A DNA stretch of 64,000 nt from Eublepharis macularius (taxonomy: Eukaryota > Chordata > Lepidosauria > Squamata > Eublepharidae). Below are positions 265-63,335 of this stretch, piece after piece. The translations under genes were made by a program, and so were the position numbers. Under the pieces are notes generated by a model, which was not told where the DNA came from, made no database searches, and saw only the letters and a list, made by a program, of their open reading frames with translations. Each line of letters starts with the position of its first letter. Position 1 is the first letter of the stretch. The stretch covers positions 57,675,766 to 57,739,765 of the forward strand of contig NC_072801.1 of the NCBI RefSeq assembly GCF_028583425.1, written 5' to 3'.

Positions 265-909
265 ATGGCCTCTGCTGCCTTCCAAATCTTGGGCATGGCC
301 CTATCAGTGGTGGGCTGGATTGGTGCAATCGTCACATGTGCCCTGCCCATGTGGAAGGTCACAGCTTTCATCGGCACCAACATTGTGACAGCTCAGATCA
401 CCTGGGAAGGCCTGTGGATGAGTTGTGTGGTACAGAGCACCGGTCAGATGCAATGCAAGGTCTACGACTCCATGTTGGCTCTGCCTCAAGATCTCCAAGC
501 TGCCCGAGCCCTTATGGTCATCTCAGTGCTTCTGGCTGTCCTGGCCCTCATGATTGGCATTGTAGGGGCCAAGTGCACTAACTGCGTAGAGGAAGAGAGT
601 GCCAAGGCACGCATCGTCATCGTCGCGGGCGCCGTCTTTGTGGTGGCAGGAGTCCTCTCCCTGATCCCTGTGTGTTGGTCGGCCAACACAATCATCCGTG
701 ACTTCTACAACCCGCTGGTGGTAGAGGCTCAAAAGAGAGAGCTGGGGGCTTCCCTCTACATCGGTTGGGCAGCCGCTGCTTTGATGACCCTTGGAGGGGC
801 CCTGCTGTGTTGCAATTGCCCCAAGAAGGACAGCAACAACTACAGTGCCCGCTATACGTCAGCCCCCTCGCAGCCCCGCAGTGATTACCCCAGCAAGAAC
901 TATGTCTAG
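265..909 (+). CDS. CLDN6: claudin-6-like tight junction protein
   Basis: This 214-residue, four-pass membrane protein belongs to the claudins, which form the paracellular strands of epithelial tight junctions. The first extracellular loop carries W30, the W-GLW motif at 47-51 and the disulfide pair C54 and C64. R81 ends the loop before the second membrane segment. Membrane segments lie near residues 8-28, 82-102, 117-138 and 163-183. Cysteines 104/107 and 182/183/185 sit at the inner face, where claudins are often palmitoylated. The tail ends in KNYV, a PDZ-binding motif for ZO proteins. CLDN6 rather than CLDN3/4 is supported by [26 protein letters not shown] and the PSKNYV tail. The reading frame is intact and the length normal for the family. 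It is convergent with the claudin-9-like gene. The subfamily call rests on remembered mammalian sequences, not on an alignment search. Confidence 0.9.
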
Positions 910-13028: not shown

Positions 13029-13688
13029 TCATACATAGTCCCGCTTGTCAATCCCACTGCCTGGTGGCGCAGTGGATCTGGCTGGGGCAGAATACCCAAT
13101 ACGTGGCGGTGGGTAGCGGTCCTCTCGTGGTGGGCAGGAACAGCACAGCAGAGAGCCCCCAAGGAGAAGCAGCGCAGAAGCTGCCCAGCCGACATAGAGA
13201 GCAGCTCCCAGCTCCCTCTTGAGGGATTCGGCCACCAGCGGGTTGTAGAAGTCACGGATGATAGAGTTGGCTGACCAACACACAGGGATGAGGATGAGGA
13301 GCCCTGAGACGATGAAGAGTGATCCGGAGGTGATGACGATGCGGGCCTTGGCACCTTCATCATCTACACAGTTGGTGCATTTGGCCCCCACAACGCCCAC
13401 CAACAGGGCCCAGATGGCCAGAAGCACTGAAATAACCATGAGGGCCCGGGCAGCTTGGAGATCTTGAGGCAGGGACAACATGGAGTCATAGATCTTACAC
13501 TGCATCTGGCCAGTGCTCTGCACAATACAGTTCATCCAAAGTCCCTCCCAGATGATTTGCGCCACAACAATGTTGTTCCCAATGAAAGCAGTGACCTTCC
13601 ACATGGGCATGGCGCATGAGATAATGCTCCCCAACCATCCCAAAATGCACAGGCCCATGGCCAAGATCTCTAGCCCTGCAGAGGACAT
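13029..13688 (-). CDS. CLDN9: claudin-9-like tight junction protein
   Basis: This intact 219-residue claudin is a four-pass tight junction protein. It shows W30, the W-GLW motif at 47-51, the loop cysteines C54 and C64, R81, and inner-face cysteines at 104/107 and 182/183/185. Membrane segments lie near 8-28, 82-102, 117-138 and 163-183. The tail ends in DKRDYV, a PDZ-binding end. CLDN9 is favoured over CLDN3 by [25 protein letters not shown] and the RIGYS...DKRDYV tail; CCSCPPRE in the tail is also seen in CLDN3, so the two are not far apart. The coding region is in one exon. The convergent orientation relative to the claudin-6-like gene matches the mammalian CLDN6/CLDN9 pair and not the divergent CLDN3/CLDN4 pair. 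CLDN9 in mammals is needed in the inner ear; that role is not readable here. Confidence 0.88.
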
Positions 13689-17734: not shown

Positions 17735-18727
17735 TAGGGTTCCCAACCTCCAGGTGGTGACTGGAGATCTCCTAGAATTACAATTGGTGACAGATCAGTT
17801 CCCATGGAGAAAATGGCTGCCTTGGACAGGGCCGGTTCTATGGTTGCCAGCACCCAGGGCAACCGTAGTCAGGCTAGTTCCGCGCATGCATAGCGCGCGT
17901 GCTCCTGGTGCTGCATGATGATGTAATTCCTGTGACATCATCACGCTGGGCGCCCCCCCCGGCCCTGCGGCAAGCCAGCTGTTGTGGCGTGCCACGGAGC
18001 TGGCGGCGGCGGCAGCGTGAGTGGCTCGGAGGCTGCCCGTGCCCTTCACCTGCCCTGCAGGACAAGGGGCGGCTGGCTTGCCGCGCACCCCTTGTCCTGG
18101 GGAAAGGCGAACAGCGCAGGCTGCCTCCCAGCCATCCACGCTGCCTTTTGCCTTTCCCACAGGACAAGGGGCTGCCAGCCTGCTGTGTGCCCCTTGTCCT
18201 GAGGAGAGGCAAATGGCGCGAGCAGCCTCTGAGCCACTCGCGCTGCCACCACTGCTGCCGCCTCTGTGGCGCGCCGGGACAGCTGGCTTGCCCCGGGGGC
18301 GGGGGGTAAAGGCAAACGGTGCAGGTGGCCTCCCAGCCTCCCAAGGCAGGCAAAAGGCAGTGCGGGTGGCTGGGAGGCCGCCCACGCCATTCGCCTTTCC
18401 CCAGGACAAGGGGCGCGTGGCAAGCCGGCCGCCCCTTGTCCTGCAGGAAAGGCAAAAGGCAGCGCAGGTGGCTGGGAGGCCGCCCGTGCCGTTCGCCTTT
18501 CCCCAGGCACGCTCCTGAGGCTGGCAGCTGCACCCGGCACCCCCTCTTTGGCAGCGCCAGGGGCAGACTACCCCCCCTGCCCCTCCGTCGATCCGGCCCT
18601 GGCCTTGGAAGGTGCACTTTACAGCATTTTACCCAGCTGACGTCCCTCCCCTCCCCAAATCCCATGTAAGTGGCAGCTCCACCCCCAAAATTTCCAGGCA
18701 TTTCCCATTCCAGACCTGACAACCCAA
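17735..18727 (+). mobile_element. middle hAT element of the nest
   Basis: It runs from TAGGGTTCCCAACC to CTGACAACCCAA. The flanks GGGTGGAG and GGATGGAG match at seven of eight positions, and the outer element's sequence resumes exactly after them. It is itself split by the GC-rich element at 17827-18601. Confidence 0.8.
17827..18601. mobile_element. GC-rich 775-base hAT element, innermost
   Basis: The termini CAGGGCCGGTTC and GATCCGGCCCTG are inverted, and both sides carry the perfect 8-base duplication GCCTTGGA (17819-17826, 18602-18609), diagnostic of hAT insertion. Inside, AGGACAAGGGG or its complement CCCCTTGTCCT recurs about six times in alternating orientation, separated by blocks related to GGTGGCTGGGAGGC. 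The long open frames on both strands reflect this GC-rich repetition and are not genes. No transposase is present, so it is non-autonomous. Confidence 0.9.
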
Positions 18728-23308: not shown

Positions 23309-24125
23309 AATTATCCAAAACACAATCAACAATAAGCAGAGGTCACGTTATTGTTGATTGGCCTTGCTAAGCTGATACAAGTTTCCACCGGAGACCTATG
23401 TATCAACCAGATATTGGCGTAATATGTACGTTGTTCCAAGTAACGCCATCTTTTGCAGTTCTGTAGGTGTTATGTCAGAAAGCTGCAGTTTTCCCATATG
23501 AATTGCAAAGTTTTTCGAGATGGTTCCAAGTTCCCCGATGACAATGGGGACTATAGTTGCATTCTTCTTCCATAGTCGGGCGGTTTCTATTACCAGATCT
23601 CTATATTTAATCATTTTTTCTTGTTCTTTTTCTTCAACTCTGGCATCCCCAGGGATTGCAATGTCGATTATCCAGACTTTTTGATTTCCCACAACTGTTA
23701 CGTCTGGTGTATTATGTTCAAGGTGCTGATCAGTTTGAAATCTGAAATCCCACAAAATCTTGACTTGTTCATTTTCTAGCACTTTTTCCACCTGATGCTC
23801 CCATGAATTCTTTGATACTGGCAAGTTATACTTTTTACACAATGACCAGTGAATCAGCTTTGCGACCCTGTCATGTCTAGCTTTATAGTCCGTCCGTGCA
23901 ATTTTGCTGCATTCAGAGATTAGGTGGGACACAGTTTCATTTTTTCCTGGCAAAGTCAACATTTTGGAATTTCACTGATTTTCTGAATTTTGGCTTTCAT
24001 AACATTCGTTTGTAATGCTTGTTCTTGTGCTGCGAAGACCAGACCTTCAGTTTCTTTCTTGATTGTACCCATCTTCAACCATGCCCAAGTTAGGCTGTTG
24101 TCACTTTTTCCTTCATTATTTTTCA
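23309..24125 (-). mobile_element. R4/R2-type LINE, 3' end with endonuclease domain
   Basis: The minus strand encodes the C-terminal part of a site-specific-type LINE polyprotein. An open frame at 23396-23962 (188 codons) carries a zinc-knuckle remnant (H13, C18, H30), then the restriction-like endonuclease with P86-D87, D100, and K119-Y120, and the conserved IVPIVIGELG near 137-146. It ends at a natural stop. Upstream, at about 23963-24115, the same protein continues (TWAWLKMGTIKKETEGL, then AAQEQAL and CRLC-like text), but an in-frame stop and a frameshift separate the parts. The copy is therefore 5'-truncated and dead. These LINEs use the endonuclease for target-primed reverse transcription. 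R4/Dong clade is my best guess, since such elements occur in lizards; R2 or Hero clades are possible. Confidence 0.8.
23323..23360 (-). other. perfect 13-base stem-loop in the LINE 3' UTR
   Basis: CAATCAACAATAA and TTATTGTTGATTG are perfect complements around a 12-base loop. It lies between the LINE stop codon and its 3' end, where R2-group elements carry structures used by their reverse transcriptase. Confidence 0.6.
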
Positions 24126-47436: not shown

Positions 47437-47503
47437 ATGATGAGTTTGAATCTCTGCACTTCGCTTCTTCTCTTGTGCCTGGCCGGAGGAAGCCTGCAGG
47501 GTG
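47437..47503 (+). CDS. elastin-like exon 1, signal peptide
   Basis: It encodes MMSLNLCTSLLLLC and then LAGGSLQG, a short signal peptide with a Leu-rich core. Two adjacent ATGs (47437, 47440) could start it; the second has A at -3, the first G. The exon ends in phase 1 before GTAAGT. Confidence 0.75.
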
Positions 47504-50500
47504 GTAAGTCTCGGAGATGGCGGGGGAAGATGGGGGCGGGGACAGATTAGGCACAGTGTGTATATATAAAAAGGGAAGAAAGAGGATAGGTGTGTGTGTG
47601 GGGGGGGGAATGAATTAATTTCTTCATATCAAAGGGATGGCACCTCTTTTCAAAATGGAAAAACGTGCAATTATGACATTTTTGGTTTTCAGAAAATGAT
47701 TCCCAAAGGGAATATGTCAAATATTTATGAAATTATTATGTGGAGAGAGAATAATGAGAGAATCTCTCTTAGAACATGCAGGGGAGGGGGACTATCTCCA
47801 GTACAATTAATTGGCGGTAAGTTCAATACAAGTACAGGGAAAATATTCCTGTACATACTCCCAAATGTCTGATACCAGCACTGTGGAATTCAGTAACACA
47901 ATTCATTTTACTCATTAGGTATTTATACCTCCTTGCCTCCCCAATGAAGGTCTCAAGCTGCTTACAACCTCATTCTCCTCTCTTCCATTTTATCATCACA
48001 ATAACAATCCTGTGAGGGAGATTCAAGTGAGTGTGTGTGTGAGAGAGAGAGCGAGAGAGAGAGAGGCTGGCTGGCTGGCTGGCTCAAGATCACCTTGCAA
48101 GCTTCCTTAGCAGAACAGGGGTTTGAACCTGGGTCTCCCAGATTCTAGCCTGACACTTTAACCATTACACCATGCTGTCTCTCAGTTACACAAGATGAGA
48201 TGATGACCATTGCTAGCTTTAATGACCTTTTACAATGGATCGGTCTGCTGATTAGATAGCCAGGAACATAACCTTCATGGTCAGAGGCAGGACTCCTCAA
48301 CTGAAGGGCATTAAAGAAAGAGATCAACCAATCAAGCGGCGCATGGCAGTGTCCTGCCAACATCTGCTTGGGCGCTGCTGAGTGCTAGATGAAAAATGGA
48401 AATTTTGTCTGATGTATGTAGCAAGGCAGCTTTTATGTTAACAGAAATGGAGTCTTAAGGGAACAGCACAGAGGGAATGTGTTAGATATTTGGATATGGG
48501 AATACAGAATGAGCTCACCCACCTTCAGGCTTGCATTTCACTACTGAAGTTGCATGTTAAATTTTCATCACTCCTCTACTGCAACCAAACTTCCACAGAG
48601 ACAGGAAAGGAGTAAATGAAGGGTTTAGGCTAACAGTTTGGTCGTTAAGCTCATAAGCCTGGGTTCTGAGTTCTTAATCCTCTTTTAGCCTACTAAATTC
48701 TTGGAGAGAGAGACATAAAAATATTTCGCCTCCTGTGCTTCAAGAATCTCCTGTCCCTCAAACTCAATCAGAGCCTACTGGTTATAAGTTCTGAGGGGTG
48801 ATGTTCTCCAGTTCTGTTCTCACCTTAAGAGCATTTGGGGAAGCAGAATTTCCTTCTGCTGTTAACGTTTAGGGCAGGGCTCATTTCGAGGGGGAACGTG
48901 CTGGAACGCAGTTCCGGCAGTTCCCCAAACAGGTCACATGACAGATGGCCCCACCCACCTGACTCTCGGCCATTTTGGGCCCATTTTGGCCCAGATCAGG
49001 CCTCTGACGGGTGGTGGATCACTCTCCTGCTTAGCAGTGGCCTGATCCTGACCATTTTGGGCCCCTTTTTGGCCATTTTTAGCCCTTTCTGCCATTTTGG
49101 GCCCAATTTCGGCCCTGAATGGCCAGGATTGGGTCCAAAACAGCCAGGATAGGTGATATCAGGGGTGTGGCATATGCAAATAGCTATGCTAAGGACACAT
49201 TTCCAGTGATGGCAAGGGGTGTGGCATTAGCATATGAGTTATGCTAATGAGTTCCTCCAGCTCTTTTTCTACGAAATGATCTCTGGTTTAGGGCATTTCT
49301 CTTCCCCTTCCCAAGACTCCGTTGGTGCTACATTCAGTCAGCAAAGCAAGTGTATGTATATTTTTCCATTCTATCTTTCTTTTCTTCTGGGATAGTCAAG
49401 GTGGTCTGTATAGGATTCCTAGAAGGTCTCCCATGCAAGCATTGACCAGCATTGACCAGAAGTAGACCTTAAGCTTTCACAAGATAAATGATTTGTATCT
49501 CATCTGACCACATCCCAGCCTGGAACCATACCAAAGTGATACCGAACACAAAGCTACCTTATACTGAATCAGACTGTTGGCCCGTCAAGGCAGCAGTTCT
49601 TCAGGGTCTCAGGCAGAGGTCTTTCTTTTCTACATGCCTACAAGAACAGTAACCATTCAGAGCAGCCATAGTAGGTGAACATTCCCCACTTGTAAAGTGG
49701 GCAGCACCCATCTTTATGATTGAGACCCAGCAATATGTGAGAAAGAGCAAGATTCACCTCTAGTAGTGCCTTAGAGACCAACTAGTTCTCCAGGGTATGC
49801 ACTTTTGAGAGTAAAAGCTCCCTTCATCAGGTACAAGGAGTGGAGCTTTTTCTACTCCTCGTATCTGACGAATGGAGCTCTGGCTCTCAGAAGCACACAC
49901 CCTGGAGATCTAGTTGGTCTCTAAGGTGCTACCAGACCTGAATCTTGCTCTTCTACTAGACACCAACATGGCTACCCACCCAAAAATATGTGGGAAAGGA
50001 AAGGGGTTTGTTGCACTGCAAAACTCGGGTAGAGGTGGCTGAACGTGTCTCTGGTTCTTCTGGTCATGGAGACCCTCTCCAGGATCCTCACCAGTAAAGG
50101 CCTGCCAGCATCAGGGCTACCAGGAAAATTTTGGCTTCAGTGTCCCCCAAGAGTTGCACTTTCCCCCATAGGAAGGAATGGCGTTTACATGGGAGGCAGC
50201 AAAGGGGTTCAGTCAGGAATGTCTTTCTGGTGGGAAGTAAATGGATCTGTGCTCCTGGGGTTCCTAGAGCCGAAGTAGGCAACTTCTGGCACACTTGCCA
50301 AACAGTGGCATGCTTGGACCATTTTGCTCAGCAGTTCTCTGCCCAAGAGAGAGATGAACTGCAGCAGGAGTGCTGTTGGGTAGTGTGGGAGAAGACAACA
50401 GGCATGGCTTGTGCCTGTCACTGTCTCCTGAACCTGCATGGCTGCCAGTCAGGGCCACACTCCTGAGGTAGTAGCTGCTGAGCTTCGGCTTGTTCCCGAT

Positions 50501-53500
50501 ATGTCTGGCCAAGGACACCCCCCTCCTCCTTTGCTGGCACTCCAACATCTTTTGTTGCATTGTTTTCCAGACAATGAGAATCAGGCCTTTTGCTTTCTAG
50601 CGTAACCCGGTTTTGGCTTCTGTCTCTTGGTCGCTCTAAAGCATGACAGAATGTTGGGAGCTGACTTTTCTATGAAGATTATGAACAGCGTCGAGAGAGG
50701 GAGAGATCATACAATGAAATCAATTGATAGGAGGTAGATAAAAGCAAGCATTTCTCCACACACTGCGTAGTTCTTGTAGAGTCTATCACATTTTTATCCT
50801 CTGCATCCCACCCAGAAGCTGAGGGCATTATCCACAGTTCTTTCCTCCCTAGTTTATCTTCACAATGGCCCTGTGAGGTGGACTAGGTTGAAAGAGAACA
50901 GCTAACAAAGGGCCAAGCTAGAAGCAATGAATTACACTTGAATGGTAAGTGAACAGACTCACATCATGTATTTCTCCCTATTCACTTGCGCTCCACTTGC
51001 GCTCCACGCAATCGCGTAGAGCACAAGTGAACAGGGAGGGATACACGCGAGTCTGTTCACTTGCCATTCAAGTATAATTCGTCACTTCTAGCTTGGCCCT
51101 GAGGTCACTGGTGACCAGAATCAAGGTTTGAATGCAGGTCTTCCAGTTCCTAGTCTAAAGCACTAACCACTGCAGCAAACTAGCTCCCATCCATTGTTGC
51201 AGGTTGTATTGTATTGAGTTGTATTCAGAGTCCTTAGGGTTTGCCAATGTTTTTGAAAGATCTGTGCAAATTAATGGAAACCAGAGTTATTAGCTGCAAT
51301 AGCTAAATGAAACCTCCATGTTTAGAAGCAGTATACCTCTGAATACATGCTGCTAAGGTGGAAGAAGAGAGTGACTGTTGCCAGCACACCCATCTGGCTA
51401 GCCAGCACAGGAAAGAGAGTACTGGGTTTGATGGATTCTTGCTTGTTTCCAGAAGGAAAATCTTAGGTTCTTATGAATGCATATTGCTTGGCGAAACAAG
51501 AACACTGGGCCTGTGTTGGAGTCCAGAACTAACAGTAGTCAGTAACTCCAGGTTAATCAAAACTGATTATAAGTGTGAACTCTTCTGTATGTTGCCTTTG
51601 AAGGGTATTCTGTGTAGAATGAAGGGAGAGGAGGCTTCAGGGAGAGAGAGCTCTTATAGTGGAGACTAGAGAGACCTGAGTTCAAATGCCCACTCAGCCA
51701 TGAAGTTCACTGAGTGACCTTGGGTCAATTTCTTTCTACCTGGCCTACCTTACAGGGCTGTTGTTAAGGTAAAATAGAGGCGAGAACTCTGTATGTCATC
51801 CTGAGTTTCTGGGAGGAAAGCTGAGAGGAGATTTTTAAAAATCTTGCCCACATCCCAGCCTGTCACTAATAATTCCCCCACCCTTCCATGGCTCCTGGTC
51901 TAACATGACATCCCAACCCGAGGAGAGCTTAGGGGCTGATATGCCCCCTCTCACGTCACATCTCTGTCTGGCACAAAGATGCCACATTCCTTCTGTGCCA
52001 TTGCCAGCCCTGCACACAAAAGCCTCCTTAGTGGCCTCATTGGGGGGGAGGGGTTGACACCCCCCTGCAAAGCCGCAAAGGCAGGCAGGCAGACAGGCAG
52101 GCCAGGTCCCTGAGCCAGGAGACAGGGTGGGTCCCAGGTGGACCACAGGCCTGAATGAGATTAAATAATCCTCTGGCATTGGGGGCCCTGGCTGTGAAAG
52201 GTGCTTTGTGGAAAGCCCCAGACCTGGCATGGCGGATATTTTCCACCAGATGCAAGAAAGCCACGCTCTCAGCAAGCAGAATAAAAGATTCTTGTGGCAC
52301 CTTTAAACTTTCTCTGGATCTTTATTTGTGTAGACATTCACTATACAAACTTGCAGATAAATAAGGGAAATAGAGCAGAGCTGATTGACAGCATAAGAAT
52401 CAATTATGTGTCATATAGGTTGTTGAAAAACAGCACAGGAGGGTTTCCTTTCCGCAGCATCTCATCGGTCAGTCAGTGTGATATAGTGGCCAACATTTCA
52501 GGCCAGGATCTGGGAGACCCAGTATGCTGTGGAAATTTGTTGAGTAACCTTAAGCCAGTCACTCTCTCTTAGCCTAACCTACCTCACAGGGTTGTTGTTT
52601 TGAGGATAAAATAATGGAGGGGGAAATGAGATATTTTGGATCCCCATTGGGGAAAAATAATTTAAATCCATGAACTTTGGATGATGTTTCATAGCCACCA
52701 GACCACTGCATATTTATACAAAGTTTGGATAATACTTGTATTTGCTAGAATATTGATACCCTACTCTTCCTATGTAGGCACATACAAGGTGGCTTACAAG
52801 CATGTGGTTAAAATAATTAAACAGAAAATAGAAAAAGGAAAAGGAAAAGCAGACTAAAGACTCACTATAATAATAGCAGGTGAAAACATTAAACCCAGAC
52901 TAGGATTTAAATCATAAGAATAGCATCAAAAACACAGAGGAGATCATAAAAATACCAATGAAGTGAAATAGCCAATTGTTCATACTATGAAAAATAATTA
53001 TTCATTTTAGCATATTGTTTCACAGTATGGATAGCCATGTTCTTCTGTAGCAGTATCTGAGTTCAGTAGTTACATTAGAGGCCAACAAAATTTTCCAGGA
53101 TATAAATGTGACTCATTACCCCCTACTTTTTTTTTTGATATATTACAGCAGTAAAGCCACAAGGAAATGGCCGGGGAGCCCCTTACTTCCCATCACTGAT
53201 AAGGGGTAAGTGCCCTCTGCTATGCACCCCCACCCTTGCACCATCATCTAACACACAGATTCACACACTGGTGTTGCTTTTTTCTTTCAAGGTCCATCTT
53301 AATGCCACTGAATGGGTGGGTTTAAAATTGTGTAGATTTGCATGGAATTAACCTACGTGCATACATATACAATGGCTGATTTGTATCTCTGGAAGAGATA
53401 TCAAACCACATGGCAAGTCTACCAGAGATCCCATGCCTCATTTGGCCCCCTATAGCTCCTCTGGACCCAGGCTTAGAATTATTGGGAGACGCATAAAGGG

Positions 53501-56500
53501 GGAGAGCTTAATAAATATTGACCAAATCATGCCCCTGCGGAGCCTAAGTTTCATTTCTAATAGGGTTACCAACTCCCAGTTGATAAATTTCTGGATATTT
53601 TAGGGTGAAACCTGGGGAGGGACCTCAATAACATAGAGTCCACCTGCAAAGCAGCCATTTTCTTCAGGGGAACTGATCTCTGTTGTCTGGAGATTAGTTG
53701 TAATCCAGGGAGATCGCCAGATGCCACCTGGAGGCTGGCAACCCTCTCTCTCTTTCTCTCTTACCCCATATCTACAATCTCATCATGACTCATGAAAGAA
53801 AAAAAATCTATTTCTGTAGTGATATAGATGGACTGTATCATAGGCCTGCAGTCTCATCTGGGCTTTCCTCATGTGGCCCCTCACCCTTCCATGTTTGGCC
53901 TGTGTGTCCCCCATCTTGTAGTCTTCTAAAAGCTAAGGGAGGGAGGGAGTTATCAAAAAACAACAGGTAGGGGCTGGGCTGGATCCAGCCATCTTTTTCT
54001 CTAATTCTTGCCCCATTCATGTGCACTTTGTTCGTTTAGGTCCCCTGATCACCAGCATAGCTGTCTCGTGTGGTCAAAGGAGACCTATAGCTCCCTTTGT
54101 CACCAGCACTCTCTTCTGCAGTCTAGATCCAGAGGAGTTAGCCGTGTTAGTCTGCAGTAGCAAAATAGCAAAGAGTCCCATAGCACCTTTAAGACTAACC
54201 AACTTTATTGTAGCATAGCATAAGCTTTCGAGAGCCACCGCTCTCTTCGTCGGATGCATCTGACGAAGAGAGCGGTGGCTCTCGAAAGCTTATGCTACAG
54301 TAAAGTTGGTTAGTCTTAAAGGTGCTTACTGCTAAACACCCATAAGGGCCCCATTCGATACAAGGGGGAGTTCAGCCTTTGTGTTCTCTGTCCCACTCAG
54401 GCGTAGGAGGAGTGCAGCCAGGAGCCGGACTGGGACCATCTGGAGCCAAAGCAGGTAAATGATTCAAAGATCTTTGGATCCTCCCTGCATTCCATAGATA
54501 ATTTAAAAAATAGCGATCTCTGCCATTTGCTATCTATTGTCATGAAGTACTTGAAACCAAAATCTGGTATACTTTTTGCACCTTTATTACAGCAGCTAAA
54601 ACCATCGCAATCTGCTATGCCGCTTCTGAAATATGCTTAAACTAGGATTCAGAAGCATCTCCATAGCAAGTGTGTGTGTGGAAAGTGGATCTGGCAATAA
54701 GAGTTGCCAACTGTGGCCTGAGAAATTCCTGGTGATTTGGGGGGGGGGGGGCTGAAGCCTGGGGAGGGAGTGCAGCAGATTATAATGCCATAGCGTGCAT
54801 TCTCCAAAATGTCCACTTTCTCTAGGGGAACTGATCCCTATTGTCTGGAGATCAGTTGTAATTCCAGGAAATCTCCAGGTCCCACCTGGAGATTGGCAAT
54901 ACCAGGGCTTTTTTTCAGCTGGAATGCGGTGGAATGGCGTTCCGGAACCTCTTGAAAATGGTCACATGGCTGGTGGCCCCGCCCCCTGATCTCCAGACAG
55001 AGGGGAGTTTAGATTGTCCTCCGCGCCACAATCTAAACTCCCCTCTGTCTGGAGATCAGGGGGTGGGGCCTCCAGCCATGTGACCATTTTCTCCGAGGGC
55101 AACCGACTGAGTTCCACCACCTTTTCCCAGAAATCCTGTATGAAAAATGTCTTTCCATTGAGGTTTGTACTTGGCACAGCAATCGTAGTGGGGGTGCTAG
55201 TGTTTAGTTCTTTTACTAACAAACCCACTTTGCATTTACCTGGTGTCAGGTAAAGAAAAGACTGTACATTGTGATCCGCAGTGCAACTCCCTCCATAATT
55301 ATTCTTTTCATTTTCTTCCTCTGATGCCACCTGTCTTCTCCCTCCTTTCAGGGAAATATCCTGGTTATGGAGCCCAAGGAATGCCGACAGGACTGGGTAA
55401 GACTACCATAAAATACCACAAGAGTAAAAAAGAAAAACCATTAAATATGTTGCAAGCTGAACAAAAAAGAAATGCTTTCATTTGCCATCGTAGGGATGGC
55501 ACGTGTATGTCTCAATCAAGCTACTATCATAGGTACATTGGATGTCCCCTGCCAATCGTAACTGGAACAAAAGGTCTCTCTCTCCTTGGTGCAATGCCAT
55601 CTCCAGCTTTTAACCTTTCTTGTTTCTGATCTTTCAGGAGCCCAAAATGGATTTGGGGCTGGACCAAGCTTTGGGGGCAGACCAGGTGAGCACAGCCAGT
55701 CCTAGCAGGATGGGATCTTCCATCTGTCAAGTGATGCCAGAGCCAAGATAAAGATGGTGCAGAGCACAAAGGCAGGCTTTTCTGGGCCCAGAGAACTTGT
55801 AATCTAAGGGACCGTTCCCAGGGGTCTTAAAGAGACATAAACCTTCTCAGATATAGATGCTGTATGGGGACAGTCTGTATTTTCTTGTATCTCTTGGCAA
55901 ATCACTGTCCTGTTGGGGGATAATTTTGTTAGTGTGTGTTGCTATCAATGATATTCTTCAGAAGTTAAATCTAAGTAGAGAATGGATGCATGTGTGTGCA
56001 CATAGACACTGAGGCATCATGCAGTGCACACCCTGCCATTTCACACTTGCAGTTGCTGAAGTGTGTTTTGAATAAAACGACCTAATAATGACTGTGCTTT
56101 TCTTGTATGTCTTCAAGCAAAACAACAAACACCTGCTTTTGGATCAGTGGGGGAGAAGCTATCACAGGCTAAATCAGCAGACAGAGTGAAACTTTCAGCA
56201 GTATATGTAACTGGGGAGGGGGGCGTACATGCCAAGTTCTTGGTTTGAGAATTAGGGTCGTACAAGCATGTTTCTATTTGCAGTTGTGAAATGGGGGGTA
56301 AACTGTTGTTTCTGCACCATGAACCCCCCCCCTTTCCTCTTTTCTGAGCCTTTTTTCTTTGACACTTTCTGCCTCCCCATAGGCTATGGTGTCCCAGCAG
56401 GTTACGGAGGAGGTACGATAACTGCTCATTCTCTCTTCGTTTGCTACCATGTACTTGTACTCTACGTGTCCCCCAGGGCAAACATGGTGAAATGATTCCG

Positions 56501-59500
56501 AGCAGCTGATACTTATAAGGGACACACACACCTCCAGGGCTGGCATCAGCGTATCCCCAAATGGGGTAGTTGCTGAAGTCCAGATTTTCCATCAGGGTCC
56601 ACTGCCACTGACTCCCCCCGCCCCTGCCCATGTAGCTGCCCTGCCACCCGGTTGCACAGGCTGCCCAGCATCACCAGGGAAAGGGCAAGCAGGTGATGCA
56701 TATGGCTGGGAGCACAGCCGGTGGGAGGGCTCACAGGGGAATGACGCACACTTGGGCACCTGCTTGGTGGGTAAGCAGGTGCATGGGAAAGGGTGCAATG
56801 GGGGTGGCAGTTAGGGGGCCCCACTCTCTGCCCGGGGACCCCAAACCTTTAACCACCCCTGTACACTGCCATCCAGGGTGATCCCTCCGCCTTAGCAGGC
56901 TCTGCAGCCTCATTTTAGAGGCAGCACTACAGTTGGCCTTAGGTTCGGTGCTTGGGCGGACAGTATATTTCCATGGGAAAGACAGAGATTCACAGCACCG
57001 TGAATGTGCCTGCAGTTCTTTTTCTCTGTGTGGCCGCAGCACGCAGAGAACAGCTGGCTTGCGGCACCTTTGCCACTCCCTCCTCTCCAACCTACTTTTG
57101 GCTGGCTGCCTTAGCCCCTCCTTCTGTGATGGGTGGTGGTCTTCAGAAGGAGGGGCAGTGAGAGAAAATGGAGGGCTGGTTTTCATAGCCCCTGCCTCAA
57201 TCTGCTGCTGCAGCAAGGGCAGTGAAGGCAAAGATGGGCAGGTCATGGTCTACGACCATCGCTTTCTCCCATCTGAAGGGTTAAGTTGGGGGCCCAGGGT
57301 GGAAGCCGCCAGAGATGTGGCTGAAGCAAAGATAATGTGCCCTCGTCTCTGTCATCTTGCAGGACTAGGTGCTTATCCACAGGCTGGGAAGCAGAAGCCA
57401 GGTAACTATGAACAACCTGGAGGGACAACGAGGGCTGCTTTCCGGTGGCTTGTGATAGATCTGTTAGACAAGAAATGTCTCCAGCAAATTCTTGTAGTGC
57501 CATATTTCTCACCCCTTCCAAAAAGAATGAGAAAACTTTCCCAACAACCTTCATTATTATGGATTTACTGGGACTTCATAGTTGGAAATGAACAGAAGTC
57601 GGATCCCATGGATCCATTCTGCTAATGGTAGAGCTTTCCTATGGCAGATGGAGCCTCCCGCTGAGAGGATGTTCTTCTCCTTGTGCCAGAGGAAAATGCC
57701 GCTGTTAGTGGAATCAGACCGTAGAATTTGGCAAGTTCGTCTTTAGCATTAAAGTCCTTTGACCCCCACCCCCACCCCCACCCTGCTGGTCAGTTCATCT
57801 GCATGTCTCATTGATGTCATTTTGTACAGCTTCTGGATATACTTAACTGTTTGCCGCTTCTTAAAATTGATCCAGGAGCCTTCTGTGTGTAAAGTGCCAT
57901 CAAGTCATAGCCAACTTGTGGCAAGCCCAGAGGGTTTTCAAGGCAAGAGATGTTGGCTTGCCATTGCCTGCCTCTGCGTGGCAATCCTGGACTTCCTTGG
58001 TTGTCTCCCATCCAAGCACTAACCAAGGCCAACACTGCCTAGCTTTTGAGCTCCAAGGCGAACAGCCCGGGCCATCCAGATCAGGGTCCAAGAGAGTTAC
58101 AAGGTGTTGTTGTTTTTTAGCATGTTTCAAAATGAAAACAGAAATTTGAGGGAAAGAAATTTAACCAAAATAATTTTTTTTCTATTAAAAAAAATTGTAT
58201 GACGTTTCTGTCCTGTTATATTTCATGATAAATCTGTGTTCCAGGTTACGGAGGAGTTGGCTACCCCCGTGGCGGCCTCCCCTTAGGAGGTAAGCGCAGC
58301 CCCCAGCTACCGTCAGCCCTTTCTTTCTTCACTCCAACTCTTGCTAGTGGTATAGTACTTAGAGTGTTGGGAGACATGGATTCAAATCCTCAAGTCCTTG
58401 CTGGAGGACCTAGGGTCAGTCATTCACTTTCTGCCTAAGCTACCTCGCAGGGTTGTTGTGAGAATAAAAATGGGGAAGGGAGAACTCAGTGCTATGAGCT
58501 CCTTGGAGAAAGGGTAGGGTTAAAATGTACGAAGTAGATAGCTTCCAGGTTCAGAGGTCCCCTTCATTGACTGCCATCAGTTCCGCGGTCTGTGGGAAGT
58601 AAGGCCTAGCCAGAAGCAATGTGCTGCCCAGATGTCGTTCTTTCATCCACTCCCTGATTAATCAGCGAGAGCTCCCAGGGAAGTTTTACTTCTGCTGAGA
58701 TGAGTAGAAACATCATGAGCATCAGGGAGGGAACGGATATTGACCCAGTTGCCCTCAGGAAGCGCTGTACAGTAAGAGCACCCTGCTCCCTGCTGCCAAA
58801 CCAGATATTGTTATCTGTTCTACTCCCAGATTAGCCTGGGAGAGTTGGATGCTTCTAAGGAGGGTCTTTCTTCACTCCCCTGTGGCTGCTGAGATGATGC
58901 CAAAGGGTCTTGTCCCTTTGGCATAGATACTAGGTGTTGGGGGAAGAAACCTCCTCCTTCTAGAGTGGAGAGTCTACACATGGAAGGTGACTCCTGATGG
59001 TGAAACTGAAAATAACTTTGATTTGGAAGCTATCTTGAAGAGCTGAATAGTAGAAAGCGAGAGAACATACATCCAGTTGCAATTGACTCATGGCGTTGCC
59101 AATCCACCGGGCATCCCAGTCAAGAGACTAGCAGAGATGTTTTGCCATTGCTTTCCTCCACGTGCCAACCCCCGGTCCTTGGTGAAGCAGAATATAAACT
59201 ACTGAAAGAAAGAAATACTTGTCTCCCTGCTCTCCCCCGCCCCCCACTGTTCTGGTGGCCAAACATACCTTGCTTGACAGTCCCTTTACTTTTGCTCTTT
59301 GCAAGTCTTTTTACAAACCAGCTGTCTGCTATGTGACTTCATTACCTTTCTTGGCCAAGGCATCAGCCTCCTTGGTTATTTGACCCTTTTGAAATCAGTT
59401 AGCTGTCTTCCTCCCTCTGAAGGTCCAGGGGCGAAGGATCCAGCGTCCAGGACATTAGCCGTGAACATGATTTCGTTTAGGATTTGTTGTTTGAATCATG

Positions 59501-62500
59501 TGGTGATTTTGATGCCTACGCTTTCGTCCAGTTAACTTTTGGGGAATTCCCTCAAAAGTACTTCATCATTTGATGTGGCAGCCGCTGCACCATTACATCT
59601 TTAGTAGACTGAGTATATCCTGCAGCTTCACTCAGAATTTATTACGCTGAGAAAACGGAACTTTTAAAATTAAAAACAAAGGAAGTGTCTAGACCCTAAG
59701 ATGCTCGTCACAGGACAATTCCCTGCACAAGTCTTTATCCCTCATCCTGATTATCAGAATCAGGCAAACCAAGTGTAAGTATGCAAATGTGTCTGATTTG
59801 CGTATTGTATACAAGTTACAGAATTCTGATTTTCTTTGTGCAAGATCTTTTTTCCTTTGAGCGCAAAGTACGCAACCACGCTTTCTAGTTTTTTGCCTGA
59901 CTTGCTCTCCCTTTCTCCCTCTGCAGGTCTTGGAGCCCGAGGCAAGCCTTCCAAAACAGGTAACACTTTCTCAGCCATCAGCTCCTCTCGTGGATTCTTC
60001 TTTGAGCACTTGGAAAAATCCAACTCCTTCCACTGCATCAACACTGTGTGTCTGATGCGGTTCCATAGTGGCACAGAACTCAAGCTCTGGAGAATTTTTC
60101 TTTTCTGTTTAAAAAACAAAGCAAAATTCTAGTCCATAATGTACTGCGGTTTACTTAAAAATAATTTGATCCCACTTTTCCTAAAGCTCACAGCAGCTTT
60201 CAAACCAACCTCATAAAACCTCGTGTAATCAAATAAACTAGCAAGAGATACAACTCACAGTTGTAGATCAAAAAACTCGAAGGAAGCTGATTTCACTCTG
60301 CGACAAAGGCAGATGAGCAGTTAAACCGGTGCCAACAAGCTTAACCAAAAGCCATTCAAAATGACCCACATTCACCTAGTACCTAAAGATAGGCAGAAAA
60401 GGTACCAGGTAGATCTCCAGAGGGAGAGAATTCCCCCTTGTACAAAACCCAGCAAGTAGAGTCAGCATGCATAGTGCATCAACTTCACCCAAACCACTGT
60501 AAATGCGTGCAGATTTAAAAGGTAAGCAAAAGAGCGTGGTCTTCTTGGCTGCTGGGCTTCCATGCAGAATGCCAGAGCTCTGCCTGCCCACCTCTCTACA
60601 AACCCTTCTGGCTCCATCCTCCTCCTCTTCCTGAAGATAGTGGGCCACCACCTTAAAAACTAGCAGAACTATTGTGGCACAAGTGTTTGTGGTCCACAGC
60701 CCATTGCATCGGGGCACTCGACAACATGGGTTGTTGCCCACAGCAGCATCTGCCACAATATATCGATCAGTCTTAAAGGCACCGCAAGATTCAGTTTTTG
60801 GCTGTTTCCACACAGCTTACCTTATTCTGCAAAATAGCGAAATCTCGCACAAAATCTCGCGAGAAGATGCTGTTATCGCGTCTTCTCACGCAATAACAGT
60901 GTCTTCTCGTGTGATAACAGCATCTTTTCGCGAGATTTCGCGCAGGATTTCGCTATTTTGCAGAATAAGGTAAGCCGTGTGGAAACGGCCTTTGTTTCAG
61001 CCGCATTAGACTAACACAGCGAGTGTCTCCTTGCTGCTGGGATTTCTATAATTCCCTTCTACACCTTTTTCTCCAAACAAAAGTGGGTGGTGAGCAATGG
61101 TTTAACTGTTGGACTAGGACTCAGGTGTGAATCCCCACTCTACCGTGGGAGCTCACCTGGTGACCGTTGGGCAATTAGTCTCTCATCCTAACCTGAGGCC
61201 AAAAGGCAAGCGGGGAGAATGAAGTTGTCAGTGGCTCTGGGTCCCCACTGGAGAGAAAAGCAGGGGATAAATATGGCTAAATAAATAAATACATTAATTT
61301 ATGTGCATCAATGTTTAATGCCTGTTTTTGACACATAAATAATGTTGGAAAATGCATGTGGGAATTTTGGGCAGAAGATGGCATGAAGTGAAACGGTGTG
61401 TGTGTGTGTGTGTGTGTGTGTGTGCACAATGTGCACATGAGAGAAGCAAAATCAAAACAGGAGACCTGAGACTTGAAATAGCAAAGATGGGAACTTTGAA
61501 ATCCTCCCTCCTCAGCCGTGCTCGTGTGGCTACGTCATTTGTGCCATCTCCTCTTGACCCATGCTGGCTCTTCCCTCTGATCCTGCTCCAGGAAACCTCA
61601 TTTGGCAGCTCTAGCTTATTGACAACCTAATTTGTTCTTAGAAAATGATTTCTTCCACTCTCTTTTCCCCTGCAGGCTATGGGGCAGGGCCTGGTGCCTA
61701 CCCAGGAGCCAGCGCACAGCAGGGTAAGGATTGGTTAGAGCACAGTGGCTGCAAAACAGATGAGGATGTGGTGGCTGGGATTTTCCTTTGGGGAATCTCT
61801 CCTAAGAAATGTGCTGGAAGGTTCAATCTGTCCTCTTACAGGTCCTCTGACCTAGAACCTCTTGACCCCAGAGGGCAAGATGTGTTTCCTTAATCTTCTT
61901 TATTGGTGTTACACACTCCTGGCTTCCATGAGAAGTCCCAGGAACAGCCAAATTTACTTTATTTTGGGAGAGAGCGAGCCTTGGAGGCTTACACTACCAT
62001 GGCGGTATTTATCTGAGCATAAGTGGAGACAAAGAGGCAGCCCTCCAGGGCAGATTGCTAGAGAACAGTGTGAGCATCCCAGTGGCAGCTTAAAATGCAG
62101 CCAAAAATGTTCCTCTCTGTACCTCCCTCTCCCTCTTCCCAGCTGATATCTCTCAAGGCTCAAACTATGTATGTGTCTGTGCATGGAGTTGGATCCAGCA
62201 GTAATTCCCGCTGGTGGAAGACCTGTCTGTCAGCAGACAGGACTTCTTTCCTCTTGCTACAATCCAGAACACGCCCTGAAATGCTGTTCTGTGGGACGGG
62301 GGACCCCCTCTCCCAAGATCAGCATGAGAGGTGAGTTGGAGGGCTGCAGCAGAAGGGGGGAAATGGCAAAAAACACCCTTCTGTTAGCAGAAATCTATCA
62401 CTGTGTTCAATCCATTGATACTGGGGATCTGTGAATGCACACGCACGTGCACACACAGAGGTTCCTTAATTGAATGTAACTTCCTGCTTTAGATGGGGGG

Positions 62501-63335
62501 AAGAGGCTCAATACAGTCTCTGTGTTTTCCTTACCAGGGTTAAAACAACTCTCTAGGAGTATTTTCAATCAGGGAAACCACATGCGGAAGAATTAATCAC
62601 CCGCTGTTCCCCATTCTCATCGCCCCAATCCATATCTTCTCCAACCCACATCAGCTAGTTTTTGTTGCCAAATGCTGAAATGAAGCTTGCTGTCTGAGTT
62701 CTCAATTGAGTGAACTTTTTGATTCACACAAGAAGTGCCTGGGAATTTCAGAGTGGGGGCTGGGCGAGGCAGGCAGAGGGTTGCGCATGGCCACTGCGCC
62801 ATACTCTTCTTTCTTCTGATTGGCTTTCTTCCTGCCTGTCTGCCCTGCCCTGTGGCCCTATGTGAATCTTTCTAACTTGGAAATTCCCAGCCAGATTGAA
62901 TGCTCAAGTCAAGACATTCCTGTTTTTAAAAAGCTTGAGTCAGTTCCAGCAATCCACGAACGTGCACCGACACAGCAGCTGTTGCTTGCCTCATCCAAGG
63001 AATGCAGACCTCGCAGGAGCAAGTCCTGCAGATAAATTTGGAATAGTTTTGGGCTACTGTTTGTAATTTGCATGATTTTCAGGGGAAAGCTGCTTCAGTT
63101 TGAAATACAATTGAATATGGCCAAAGGAGGAAATTCATTGCAGCTTGTTTTCTAATTTTGGTGGTAACATTAGTTCTGATCTCCAACTCAAGTCTTGCAG
63201 AGGCTGTGGGGAGGAGAAGTACCTTTTCTCTGTTTTCTTTTTGTCCCTTCACCACACTTTGTTCAACAGCCTATCCAGGTGGAGTTGGAGCCGGAGGCTA
63301 TCCAAGCAATGGACTCCAGAATGGCTATGGCAACG
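47437..63335 (+). CDS. elastin-like secreted matrix protein, first 11 exons
   Basis: Eleven exons, 47437-47503, 53149-53205, 54401-54454, 55352-55396, 55638-55685, 56383-56412, 57363-57401, 58245-58289, 59927-59959, 61676-61723 and 63270-63335, give 532 coding bases (177 codons plus one base); the gene continues past the window. Exon 1 is a hydrophobic signal peptide. The rest is Gly-, Tyr- and Pro-rich, free of Cys, with spaced lysines in AVKPQG, GAKAG, GKYPG, GKQKPG and GKPSKTG. Every internal exon is a multiple of three and every intron is phase 1, splitting a Gly or Ala codon: the tropoelastin gene design. In elastins, lysyl oxidase cross-links such lysines in the extracellular matrix. 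Differences from ELN are the many GY motifs, the shortness of the exons and the lack, so far, of poly-Ala cross-link exons. It could be a second elastin paralogue or another Gly-rich matrix gene. Confidence 0.72.
47918..48181 (-). mobile_element. tRNA-derived SINE with microsatellites
   Basis: The plus strand runs from TTTATACCTCCTTGCCTCCC to TTAACCATTACACCATGC with the B-box complement GGTTTGAACCTGGG. Short GT, GA and GGCT runs expand its middle at about 48030-48085. Confidence 0.8.
48182..48874. other. intron 1 stretch, nothing recognised
   Basis: About 690 bases without a recognisable exon or repeat. Confidence 0.4.
48875..49285. mobile_element. 411-base hAT element, CAGGGCTCATTTCG termini
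   Basis: The ends CAGGGCTCATTTCG and CGAAATGATCTCTG are inverted. The perfect 8-base duplication GTTTAGGG flanks it (48867-48874, 49286-49293). The interior repeats GCCATTTTGGGCCC-type words. No coding capacity. Confidence 0.92.
49370..49540 (-). mobile_element. 5S-rRNA-derived SINE piece, diverged
   Basis: AAGGTCTCCCATGCAAGCAT followed by GACCAG and AGACCTTAAGCTT follows the complement of the 5S rRNA internal region (GGTCTCCCATCCAAGTACT...CTGCTTAGCTT). Confidence 0.5.
49548..49612 (-). mobile_element. SINE 3' part, second type
   Basis: AGCTACCTTATACTGAATCA and CAGGGTCTCAGGCAGAGGTC are the complement of the second SINE type's 3' region. Confidence 0.55.
49750..49990. repeat. old palindromic repeat related to 40164 and 54124
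   Basis: GAGACCAACTAGTTCTCCAG faces CTGGAGATCTAGTTGGTCTC, with CTTCATCAGGTAC near the centre. The plan matches the younger palindromes, but the arms have diverged strongly. Confidence 0.6.
49991..50779. other. intron 1 stretch, nothing certain
   Basis: About 790 bases. AGGCAACTTCTGGCACAC near 50278 hints at an old DNA element, but I cannot place it. Open frames on both strands lack recognisable motifs. Confidence 0.35.
50780..51187 (-). mobile_element. tRNA-derived SINE split by a hairpin
   Basis: The 3' part (CACAATGGCCCTGTGAGGTG) ends near 50909 and the head part resumes at 51100 with GGTTTGAATGCAGG and CACTAACCACTGCAGC. A GGGCCAAGCTA hairpin lies between. Confidence 0.75.
50910..51099. 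mobile_element. GGGCCAAGCTA hairpin element
   Basis: This 190-base inverted repeat runs from GGGCCAAGCTAGAAGCAATG to its complement ending TAGCTTGGCCC. No target duplication was found. Confidence 0.85.
51188..51654. other. intron 1 stretch, nothing recognised
   Basis: About 470 bases without a recognisable exon or repeat. Confidence 0.4.
51655..51832 (+). mobile_element. tRNA-derived SINE, diverged
   Basis: GAGTTCAAATGCCCACTCAG is a B-box region, followed by CCTACCTTACAGGGCTGTTG. Confidence 0.7.
51833..52465. other. intron 1 stretch, nothing recognised
   Basis: About 630 bases. A 20-base word near 52283 (TTCTTGTGGCACCTTTAAAC) resembles the arms of the palindromic repeat family; otherwise nothing recognised. 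Confidence 0.35.
52466..52672 (+). mobile_element. tRNA-derived SINE
   Basis: The head TCAGTGTGATATAGTGGCC, GGATCTGGGAGACCCAG and CCTAACCTACCTCACAGGG are clear. The B box is damaged. Confidence 0.78.
52740..52990 (-). mobile_element. possible LINE 3' end
   Basis: ATACAAGGTGGCTTACAAGC followed by an A-rich tract resembles the complement of a LINE 3' end. Too diverged to be sure. Confidence 0.3.
53149..53205 (+). CDS. elastin-like exon 2
   Basis: The 57-base exon reads AVKPQGNGRGAPYFP then SLIRG in phase with exon 1, and ends before GTAAGT. The acceptor is TTACAGCAG, a NAGNAG site that could also be used three bases downstream, dropping one residue. It holds one Lys-Pro. Confidence 0.75.
53561..53746 (-). 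mobile_element. short hAT element, TAGGGTTGCCAG family
   Basis: TAGGGTTACCAACTCCCAG and GGAGGCTGGCAACCCT mark the ends; the body has GGGGAACTGATCTCTG. The flanks do not match. Confidence 0.78.
54124..54328. mobile_element. palindromic repeat, TCGTCGGATGCATCTGACGA centre
   Basis: A near-perfect palindrome: GAGAGCCACCGCTCTCTTCG mirrors CGAAGAGAGCGGTGGCTCTC around GATGCATC. The left end CTAGATCCAGAGGAGTTAG matches the copy at 40164. Because the arms mirror each other so well, the copy looks young. Confidence 0.85.
54401..54454 (+). CDS. elastin-like exon 3
   Basis: The 54-base exon encodes GVGGVQPGAGLGPSGAKAG between CCACTCAG and GTAAAT. The GVGGV opening and the Ala-Lys-Ala end are the most elastin-like text in the gene. 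Confidence 0.8.
54699..54902 (-). mobile_element. short hAT element, TAGGGTTGCCAG family
   Basis: AGAGTTGCCAACTGTGG starts it and the body (GGAGATCAGTTGTAATTCC) is typical. Its right terminus is interrupted by the hairpin element at 54903. Confidence 0.75.
54903..55130. mobile_element. hairpin hAT element, CAGGGCTTTTTT termini
   Basis: The left arm is close to the 28646 and 32629 copies. The right terminus is degraded (CCAGAAATCCTG), so no duplication can be read. Confidence 0.85.
55352..55396 (+). CDS. elastin-like exon 4
   Basis: The 45-base exon encodes GKYPGYGAQGMPTGLG between CCTTTCAG and GTAAGA, phase 1 on both sides. Confidence 0.8.
55638..55685 (+). CDS. elastin-like exon 5
   Basis: The 48-base exon encodes GAQNGFGAGPSFGGRPG between TCTTTCAG and GTGAGC, phase 1 on both sides, without lysine. 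Confidence 0.8.
55686..56382 (+). other. elastin-like intron 5
   Basis: About 700 bases without a recognisable repeat or further exon. Confidence 0.45.
56383..56412 (+). CDS. elastin-like exon 6
   Basis: The 30-base exon, the smallest here, encodes GYGVPAGYGGG between CCCCATAG and GTACGA. The donor is slightly weak but keeps phase 1. Confidence 0.72.
56413..57362 (+). other. elastin-like intron 6
   Basis: About 950 bases, rather GC-rich. It carries an open frame continuous with exon 7, which I take as chance. Confidence 0.45.
57363..57401 (+). CDS. elastin-like exon 7, Lys-Pro type
   Basis: The 39-base exon encodes GLGAYPQAGKQKPG between TCTTGCAG and GTAACT. The paired lysines K-Q-K-P look like a KP-type cross-link site of elastins. 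Confidence 0.78.
57402..58244 (+). other. elastin-like intron 7
   Basis: About 840 bases with a 5S-derived SINE piece; the rest is unassigned, with a CCCCCA run near 57765. Confidence 0.45.
57880..58092 (-). mobile_element. 5S-rRNA-derived SINE
   Basis: GTCTCCCATCCAAGCACTAA followed by CCAAGGCCAACACTGCCTAGCTT and GAACAGCCCGGGC follows the complement of vertebrate 5S rRNA (internal control region), fused to the repeat body GCCAACTTGTGGCAAGCCC. Such SINEs occur in squamates. Confidence 0.7.
58245..58289 (+). CDS. elastin-like exon 8
   Basis: The 45-base exon encodes GYGGVGYPRGGLPLGG between GTTCCAG and GTAAGC, phase 1 on both sides. Confidence 0.8.
58340..58541 (+). mobile_element. tRNA-derived SINE, diverged
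   Basis: The head CTAGTGGTATAGTACTTAG, GGATTCAAATCC and CTACCTCGCAGGGTTGTTG are clear. Confidence 0.75.
59070..59172 (-). mobile_element. fragment of the 5S-derived SINE body
   Basis: GTTTTGCCATTGCTTTCCTC and CGTGCCAACCCCCGGTC match the body part of the repeat at 57880; the 5S part is missing. Confidence 0.5.
59927..59959 (+). CDS. elastin-like exon 9, Lys-Pro type
   Basis: The 33-base exon encodes GLGARGKPSKTG between CTCTGCAG and GTAACA, with a strong pyrimidine tract. The two lysines three residues apart suit cross-linking. Confidence 0.8.
59960..60799 (+). other. elastin-like intron 9, first part
   Basis: About 840 bases without a recognisable exon or clear repeat before the hairpin element. 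Confidence 0.4.
60800..60990. mobile_element. hairpin element with GGCTGTTTCCACAC termini
   Basis: This 191-base palindrome has long arms (TTATTCTGCAAAATAGCGAA against its complement) and the 3-base flanks TTT on both sides. It contains the palindrome TCTCGCGAGA at 60856-60865. The arms are nearly identical, so it looks young. Confidence 0.88.
61085..61296 (+). mobile_element. tRNA-derived SINE
   Basis: ACTGTTGGACTAGGACTCAG, the B-box-like GTGTGAATCCCC and GGGTCCCCACTGGAGAGAAA lead to an AAATAAATAAATAC tail. Confidence 0.75.
61393..61423 (+). repeat. GT microsatellite
   Basis: About 14 uninterrupted GT units in intron 9. Confidence 0.9.
61676..61723 (+). CDS. elastin-like exon 10
   Basis: The 48-base exon encodes GYGAGPGAYPGASAQQG between CCCTGCAG and GTAAGG, phase 1 on both sides. 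Confidence 0.82.
61724..63269 (+). other. elastin-like intron 10
   Basis: About 1.5 kb in which I recognise neither an exon nor a repeat family. Confidence 0.4.
63270..63335 (+). CDS. elastin-like exon 11, last in the window
   Basis: The 66-base exon, the longest internal one here, encodes AYPGGVGAGGYPSNG followed by LQNGYGNG, between TTCAACAG and GTGAGA. The GGVGAGG core is elastin-like. The gene clearly continues to the right. Confidence 0.8.

Follow-up and report, generated by a model that had tools for sequence, protein, structure and literature searches.

The window analyzed here, a 64,000-nucleotide stretch of the Eublepharis macularius genome (C12:57675766-57739765 of a genome of 2.24 Gb in 72 contigs), contains a chain of eleven small exons on the + strand, at positions 47437-63335, that almost certainly forms the 5' 11 of the 20 exons of an orthologue of GREP1, a gene for a secreted extracellular-matrix protein that is already named and annotated. 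Recomputation of splice sites, phases, and peptide placed all eleven exons where they had first been reported, with an AG acceptor at exons 2-11 and a GT donor at every exon. Exon 1 is 67 bases long and ends in phase 1, while exons 2-11 are 30-66 bases long and each divisible by three, so that all junctions are in phase 1. The joined exons encode 177 amino acids with a signal peptide, beginning MMSLNLCTSLLLLCLAGGSLQG, and from residue 22 onward Gly makes up 34% of the peptide, Pro 12%, Ala 11.5%, and Tyr 8%, while Cys is absent. The initial annotation of the stretch had described the same eleven small phase-1 exons, signal-peptide first exon, and Gly/Pro/Tyr-rich, Cys-free text, and this description was reproduced.

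A protein search with the window peptide gave 33 matches at E ≤ 0.001, 25 of which are named GREP1. The best match has an E value of 6.6e-77, and identities are 82% for Sphaerodactylus townsendi, 80% for Paroedura, and 85% for Euleptes (over 73% of the query), all three of which we take to be geckos. The 11 exons all align collinearly with residues 1-179 of the 369-amino-acid S. townsendi GREP1, which indicates that the window holds the 5' half of the gene. Several orthologues bear the automatic names spidroin, fibroin heavy chain, or plant glycine-rich cell-wall protein (P0006, P0014, P0017, P0064), which we take as labels on GREP1 orthologues; the likeness to those proteins is one of Gly-rich composition. 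One tortoise orthologue (P0020) carries the UniRef name 'Elastin', so a database has made the link to elastin once. Pfam assigned no family to the window peptide or to four proteins from the GREP1 searches. The initial annotation had called the element a candidate second elastin gene and had specified that the idea would be overturned if the closest match were a Gly-rich gene that already has a name and is not an elastin; GREP1 is such a gene, and the name second elastin gene falls. Exons of only 30-67 bases with low-complexity text might also be read as a chance run of Gly-rich open segments or as a decayed gene. We consider this explanation extremely improbable and reject it on the 80-85% identity to annotated gecko proteins, the collinear alignment of the eleven exons, the intact splice sites, and a frame that is open through the last exon, apart from one unread base of exon 17.

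The exons inside the window are listed below, followed by two claudin genes, each a single open reading frame (ORF). All eleven exons were placed by their splice sites and by alignment to S. townsendi GREP1 (P0001), in which exon 1 corresponds to residues 1-22.

47437..47503, + strand: GREP1 exon 1, with start codon, signal peptide, and phase-1 end
53149..53205, + strand: GREP1 exon 2
54401..54454, + strand: GREP1 exon 3, with the first Lys of a KAGK pair
55352..55396, + strand: GREP1 exon 4, with the second Lys of the KAGK pair
55638..55685, + strand: GREP1 exon 5
56383..56412, + strand: GREP1 exon 6, 30 bases
57363..57401, + strand: GREP1 exon 7, with GKQKP
58245..58289, + strand: GREP1 exon 8
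59927..59959, + strand: GREP1 exon 9, with the Lys pair KPSK
61676..61723, + strand: GREP1 exon 10
63270..63335, + strand: GREP1 exon 11, the last inside the window
265..909, + strand: CLDN6-type claudin gene, single ORF (PDB matches claudin-4, 312 bits, and claudin-9, 306 bits)
13029..13688, - strand: CLDN9-type claudin gene, single ORF (best PDB match claudin-9, 348 bits)

Downstream half of GREP1 and neighboring genes

Exons 12-20 lie beyond the window in the downstream DNA, and the last exon has its 3' end at L010 3087, equivalent to window position 76322. Exon 17, which runs from L009 9953 to L010 14, is 63 bases long by its coordinates, with one base unread across the two pieces; the phase-1 plan holds for the 17 internal exons that were computed and, by coordinates only, for exon 17. 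The second-last exon reads GGKESKYGMNGFLGNGYRG. The last exon consists of 26 bases including the stop codon, (G)RCPSGKC-stop, and ends the protein with a Cys pair (C-x4-C). From the summed exon lengths the protein has 375 amino acids, shorter than several frog and mammal GREP1s (434-569 amino acids), which have extra K-P-x-K repeats. Orthologues share the signal peptide end SLQG, the Gly/Tyr/Pro-rich body, the second-last exon NGFLGNGYRG, and the RCPSGKC end. When the whole genome was searched with the Sphaerodactylus protein, 12 of the 15 listed matches, including all up to E 4.6, were at the GREP1 locus, and the other three had E values of 7-9.

The two claudin genes bear out the placement of the exon chain beside CLDN6/CLDN9. 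The number 6 for the claudin at 265-909 is taken from its place and from the ending of human CLDN6, there being no CLDN6 structure among the PDB matches listed. The CLDN9-type gene is the nearest recognized gene to the left of GREP1, with no systematic gene search made between them, and GREP1 begins 33.7 kb beyond it. Next downstream of GREP1 is PKMYT1 (218 bits to Myt1 structures), and then a PAQR-type gene with an HlyIII domain, giving the order CLDN6-CLDN9-GREP1-PKMYT1-PAQR. The known GREP1 gene has the same neighbors, PKMYT1, CLDN9, and CLDN6, and human GREP1 presumably also sits between PKMYT1 and CLDN9. For cattle, one study lists KREMEN2, PAQR4, PKMYT1, CLDN9, CLDN6, and TNFRSF12A in a single 0.64-Mb interval, in a list order that is not strictly map order (PMC4928802).

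Species spread and elastin-like traits of GREP1

A profile built from 15 GREP1 sequences and scored against the 7991 candidates with the most shared words gave 80 proteins at E ≤ 10. GREP1 matches come from turtles, frogs, caecilians, marsupials, rodents, a hare, and a marmoset (E ~0.08). The profile matches extend to teleosts, with 14 proteins at E values from 1.8e-5 to 4.8, and to the horn shark Heterodontus francisci, in which the protein P0062, named 'elastin-like', matches at E 1.8e-7. This shark protein scores 35 bits with the C-terminal profile of tetrapod GREP1, with none of 10,000 shuffled tails as good, and with composition correction on, it and all four teleost proteins tested (P0064, P0066, P0067, P0073) outscore all 500 of their shuffles and also their reversals. 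Bird and crocodile names did not occur among the matches, in searches limited by length and shared words, and for that reason their absence is no evidence of loss.

The breadth of these matches bears on two proposals. The initial annotation had supposed that squamates retain an unrecognized gene whose tiny exons caused it to be overlooked; what lies here instead is the annotated GREP1, which also has matches in turtles, amphibians, mammals, and fish. The elastin-like text, the phase-1 exons, and the tortoise orthologue named 'Elastin' would fit a duplicate of ELN that arose recently and within squamates, but such a duplicate is rejected by the matches in turtles, frogs, caecilians, marsupials, rodents, teleosts, and shark, as well as by the lack of strong residue likeness to ELN of the same genome beyond the second-last exon, and we regard it as having next to no probability.

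The lysines of GREP1 are spaced in pairs. Among 33 GREP1 sequences, one per species and hand-chosen from 82, neighboring lysines have the K-x-x-K spacing 168 times, compared with 24.9 (SD 5.0) in composition shuffles, a count that common ancestry and internal repeats inflate. Every other lysine spacing up to ten falls under the shuffle mean. Reptile pairs read KAGK, KPSK, KPPK, KPGK, and KESK; KPSK predominates in frogs and KPQK in mammals, and from this difference between frogs and mammals the lysine module seems to have multiplied separately in the two groups. Elastin sequences contain KPPK, KPGK, KAPK, and KPAK. GREP1 shows the KP-type spacing; KA-type domains were not seen in the GREP1 sequences read.

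The last exon of this GREP1 carries two Cys, as in most tetrapod matches. Of 28 tetrapods, 21 have Cys in the mature part nowhere but in the last six residues. One extra Cys occurs in each of three marsupials and two rodents, the lizard Sceloporus has two extra in the counted part that belong to a longer N terminus, and the hare has a single Cys and lacks the Cys end. Anuran GREP1 has a shorter Cys spacing, and that of Xenopus is without G-K between the Cys. The shark protein ends GGCPPGKCVVQGKK, a Cys pair followed by a basic end (VVQGKK). The elastin C terminus is described as two Cys forming a disulfide together with a tetrabasic motif (PMC8875079). The pattern C-x(1,2)-G-K-x(0,1)-C, which was picked after the data were seen, is carried by 54 of the 82 proteins that the GREP1 searches gave and by 5 of the 16 that the elastin search gave; shuffles of five tails produce it in 186-1261 of 100,000 cases. 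All 14 teleost predictions (P0064, P0066, P0067, P0070, P0072-P0074, P0076-P0082) end in KG, 11 of them in GNGYKG; they stop right before the expected Cys exon, as if the last exon had been lost.

ELN and claudins in the same genome

Exons of ELN are found in the same genome at C17:21.273-21.315 Mb, on another chromosome than GREP1 (C12). With splice sites chosen blind to phase, the nine acceptors found are all in phase 1 and each of ten exon cores has a phase-1 donor; one core is without an acceptor, one has a second donor in another phase, and no ELN exon 1 turned up in the stretches that were searched. The second-last ELN exon reads GKPPKPYGALGALGYRG. A claudin trio lies at C17 20.98-21.01 Mb, with a divergent claudin 266 kb from ELN, a CLDN4-type gene at ~274 kb, and a CLDN3-type gene at ~291 kb. 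One of the pair is best matched by claudin-4, and the other by claudin-4, then claudin-9 and claudin-3; we call the latter CLDN3 from its place and ending. In a tree of eight claudins the CLDN3/4-type pair and the two claudins of the window form one group (support 0.855, identity 61-68%). The third claudin of C17 (C17:21006665-21007195; L018 6654-7301) is more divergent and falls outside the group of the other four.

BCL7 genes with two matched stretches lie at C12 65.70 Mb, C17 18.93 Mb, and C13 69.94 Mb, and a fourth, single-stretch match lies on C1. A LIMK1-type gene is present at C17 19.21 Mb, ~2.1 Mb from ELN, and a LIMK2-like gene on C13. The surroundings of ELN that the initial annotation had suggested checking, CLDN3/CLDN4 and LIMK1, are therefore present in part: ELN lies on C17 ~274 kb from CLDN4, but LIMK1 is on the same chromosome at a far greater distance. 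The layout is compatible with an ancient shared block, and human 7q11, 16p, and 12q24 probably behave alike. In a bird, Colinus virginianus, one prediction (P0091) combines elastin-like text with LIM and PDZ domains, apparently as a merged model of ELN and LIMK1, a hint that these genes lie side by side in that species.

Possible relationship between GREP1 and elastin

Secretion, Gly/Pro/Tyr-rich text, paired lysines, and a Cys end together make an elastin-like monomer cross-linked by lysyl oxidase the likeliest mechanism for GREP1, and on this analysis the protein probably works in such a way. Its signal peptide would export a probably disordered chain with K-x-x-K pairs. By analogy with elastin, lysyl oxidase could turn the paired lysines to allysine, cross-linking chains, and the C-x4-C pair may serve assembly or binding. 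The origin of the likeness would be one claudin-elastin block duplicated in early vertebrates, with ELN kept beside CLDN3/CLDN4 and GREP1 beside CLDN6/CLDN9. Tropoelastin has in common with GREP1 its small exons in phase 1, its lysine pairs, K-P-x-K among them, and its tiny last exon; bird and mammal tropoelastins have the same Cys pair with G-K between; and the tropoelastin gene has the same position near a CLDN3/4/6/9-type pair. GREP1 differs from tropoelastin in its low Val content (2-6%), in ending without RKRK, and in giving no significant profile match; the sequences read also contained none of the KA-type, poly-Ala domains in which lysines are repeated.

Kinship at the level of residues was examined with pairs of exons. 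We compared 17 of the 20 GREP1 exons (without exons 1, 17, and 20) with 16 ELN candidates, 272 pairs in all; the candidates came from searching a part of ELN for phase-1 exons, from which one duplicate and one 24-base candidate were dropped and in which at least one ELN exon was missed. The top pair consists of the second-last exon of ELN with the second-last exon of GREP1 (z 4.4, 2 of 600 shuffles as good). In global alignment of these two exons none of 4000 shuffles was as good, and 6 of 4000 were when the last three residues were fixed. When composition was left uncorrected, forward scores exceeded all reported shuffles for 15 of 16 elastin-set proteins, but reversed sequences also scored high, once above the forward sequence, and we therefore gave these scores no weight.

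Several observations weigh against the kinship. The GREP1 second-last exon occurs in five of the six top pairs, four of them with ELN KA exons, and so its match to ELN is not very specific; against another GREP1 exon it scores 36, compared with 42 against its ELN partner. The second-last-exon match to ELN of this genome fades with GREP1 of shark (982 of 4000 shuffles as good), frog (189), and marsupial (170), where genes that are old sisters would be expected to match to a similar degree; it is better with GREP1 of caecilian (14), Alosa (10), and Tachysurus (35). With composition correction, none of the 16 elastin-search proteins reaches significance with the whole GREP1 profile (best score 3.0 bits, at E 0.37), though goldfish elastin outscores all 500 of its shuffles, at a negative score. 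With the C-terminal profile, shuffles were as good as the elastin tail in 2897 of 10,000 cases for eagle and 6821 for lemur. With the N-terminal profile, 202 of 10,000 shuffles were as good for goldfish elastin, which has SLQGGV in common with GREP1, 4170 for bear, and 4752 for titi monkey elastin. In local alignments to gecko, frog, shark, and marsupial GREP1, respectively, 133, 135, 772, and 1103 of 5000 shuffles were as good as the eagle elastin tail, and 70, 286, 4160, and 3092 of 5000 as good as the ELN tail of the same genome. Many of the 16 elastin-set proteins are frameshifted or chimeric predictions, which weakens the profile tests. At the C terminus, tetrapod GREP1 stops at the second Cys, RKRK is absent from the listed GREP1 matches, and the Cys pair is missing in all 14 teleost matches and in the hare and marmoset predictions. 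ELN of this genome ends GYRG-GVGRKRK (L038 7473-7520 and 9780-9806; C17 21.312-21.315 Mb), with a Cys-free last exon. The two genes of this genome thus have opposite ends, RKRK without Cys in ELN and two Cys without RKRK in GREP1. As for the surroundings, BCL7 is 8.0 Mb away from GREP1 and 2.3 Mb away from ELN, and a LIMK search of the genome gave no match near GREP1, so that the case for a shared block stands on two gene families.

These results could be explained if GREP1 were an independent Gly-rich matrix protein convergent with elastin, with phase-1 exons, Lys pairs, and a Cys end as common solutions and the claudins as coincidence. The negative composition-corrected profiles, the C-terminal differences in tetrapods and teleosts, the several ELN KA exons that also score well with the GREP1 second-last exon, and the Tyr/Asn/Gln-rich text of GREP1 compared with Val-rich elastin all agree with convergence. 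Three points argue in the other direction: the position-matched pair of second-last exons ranks first of 272, related claudin pairs lie near both genes and BCL7 on both chromosomes, and the shark copy of GREP1 has a Cys pair as well as a basic end. We regard convergence as a substantial possibility, though not the probable one. Descent of GREP1 as a true sister gene of ELN is marginally favored on the sequences compared, and the combined explanation, a GREP1 orthologue that works as a small elastin and is a sister of ELN, appears somewhat better than even. With residue-level tests mostly negative, the kinship is plausible and not shown.

The initial annotation's proposal of an elastin relative derived from a duplicated claudin-elastin block accordingly survives in part, with the layout of ELN, claudins, and BCL7 and the second-last exons in its favor and most residue-level tests against it. 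Its expectation for the C-terminal exon held for the two Cys but not for a basic end in the RKRK sense. The two elastins of fish, which it had given as precedent, are in teleosts the genes elna and elnb, ascribed to the teleost genome duplication (PMC4735684), and thus provide no precedent for GREP1.

GREP1 is known and annotated, and its value here lies in the possible kinship to elastin, which would be the new point, and in the tests that this kinship makes possible. For amniotes, the usual view is of one elastin gene. In the open-licence PMC literature no paper contained both 'GREP1' and 'elastin', and searches there on elastin paralogues and neighbors, including elastin together with CLDN3/4/6/9 and 7q11.23 together with BCL7/STX1, showed no account of the kinship among the papers listed; subscription papers could hold one. 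Whether GREP1 is an overlooked elastin ohnolog, kept from shark to mammal beside CLDN6/CLDN9 and used as a second cross-linkable matrix protein in places such as the inner annulus fibrosus, we judge to be evenly balanced. If GREP1 is a sister of elastin, humans would have a second elastin-type gene that was first filed as a non-coding RNA.

Human GREP1 is the former LINC00514, now a named gene (PMC9877250), and maps to 16p13.3 (PMC7500027). According to a review, its product is secreted, its deletion costs viability, in breast cancer lines above all, and GDF15 is raised (PMC11437038). The mouse gene, named 1520401A03Rik, is expressed in the inner annulus fibrosus, where expression is almost gone in Adgrg6 mutants (PMC13082157). 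GREP1 has so far been discussed, among the papers listed, mainly as a cancer long non-coding RNA or cancer protein. If the kinship is true, expression in the mouse inner annulus fibrosus gains a testable mechanism, the cross-linking of elastic or fibrous matrix by lysyl oxidase. Several papers present human LINC00514 as a non-coding RNA that sponges microRNAs, even though its present name is that of a protein-coding gene, and retraction notices exist for two LINC00514 papers.

Rfam gave no match within the window. At 23396-23962 on the - strand lies a 188-amino-acid ORF that by eye resembles the terminal part of a LINE-type reverse transcriptase and has no Pfam match. A GC-rich repeat at 18058-18247, with a period of 102 bases and 1.9 copies, is open in several frames and probably accounts for the cluster of long overlapping ORFs there.

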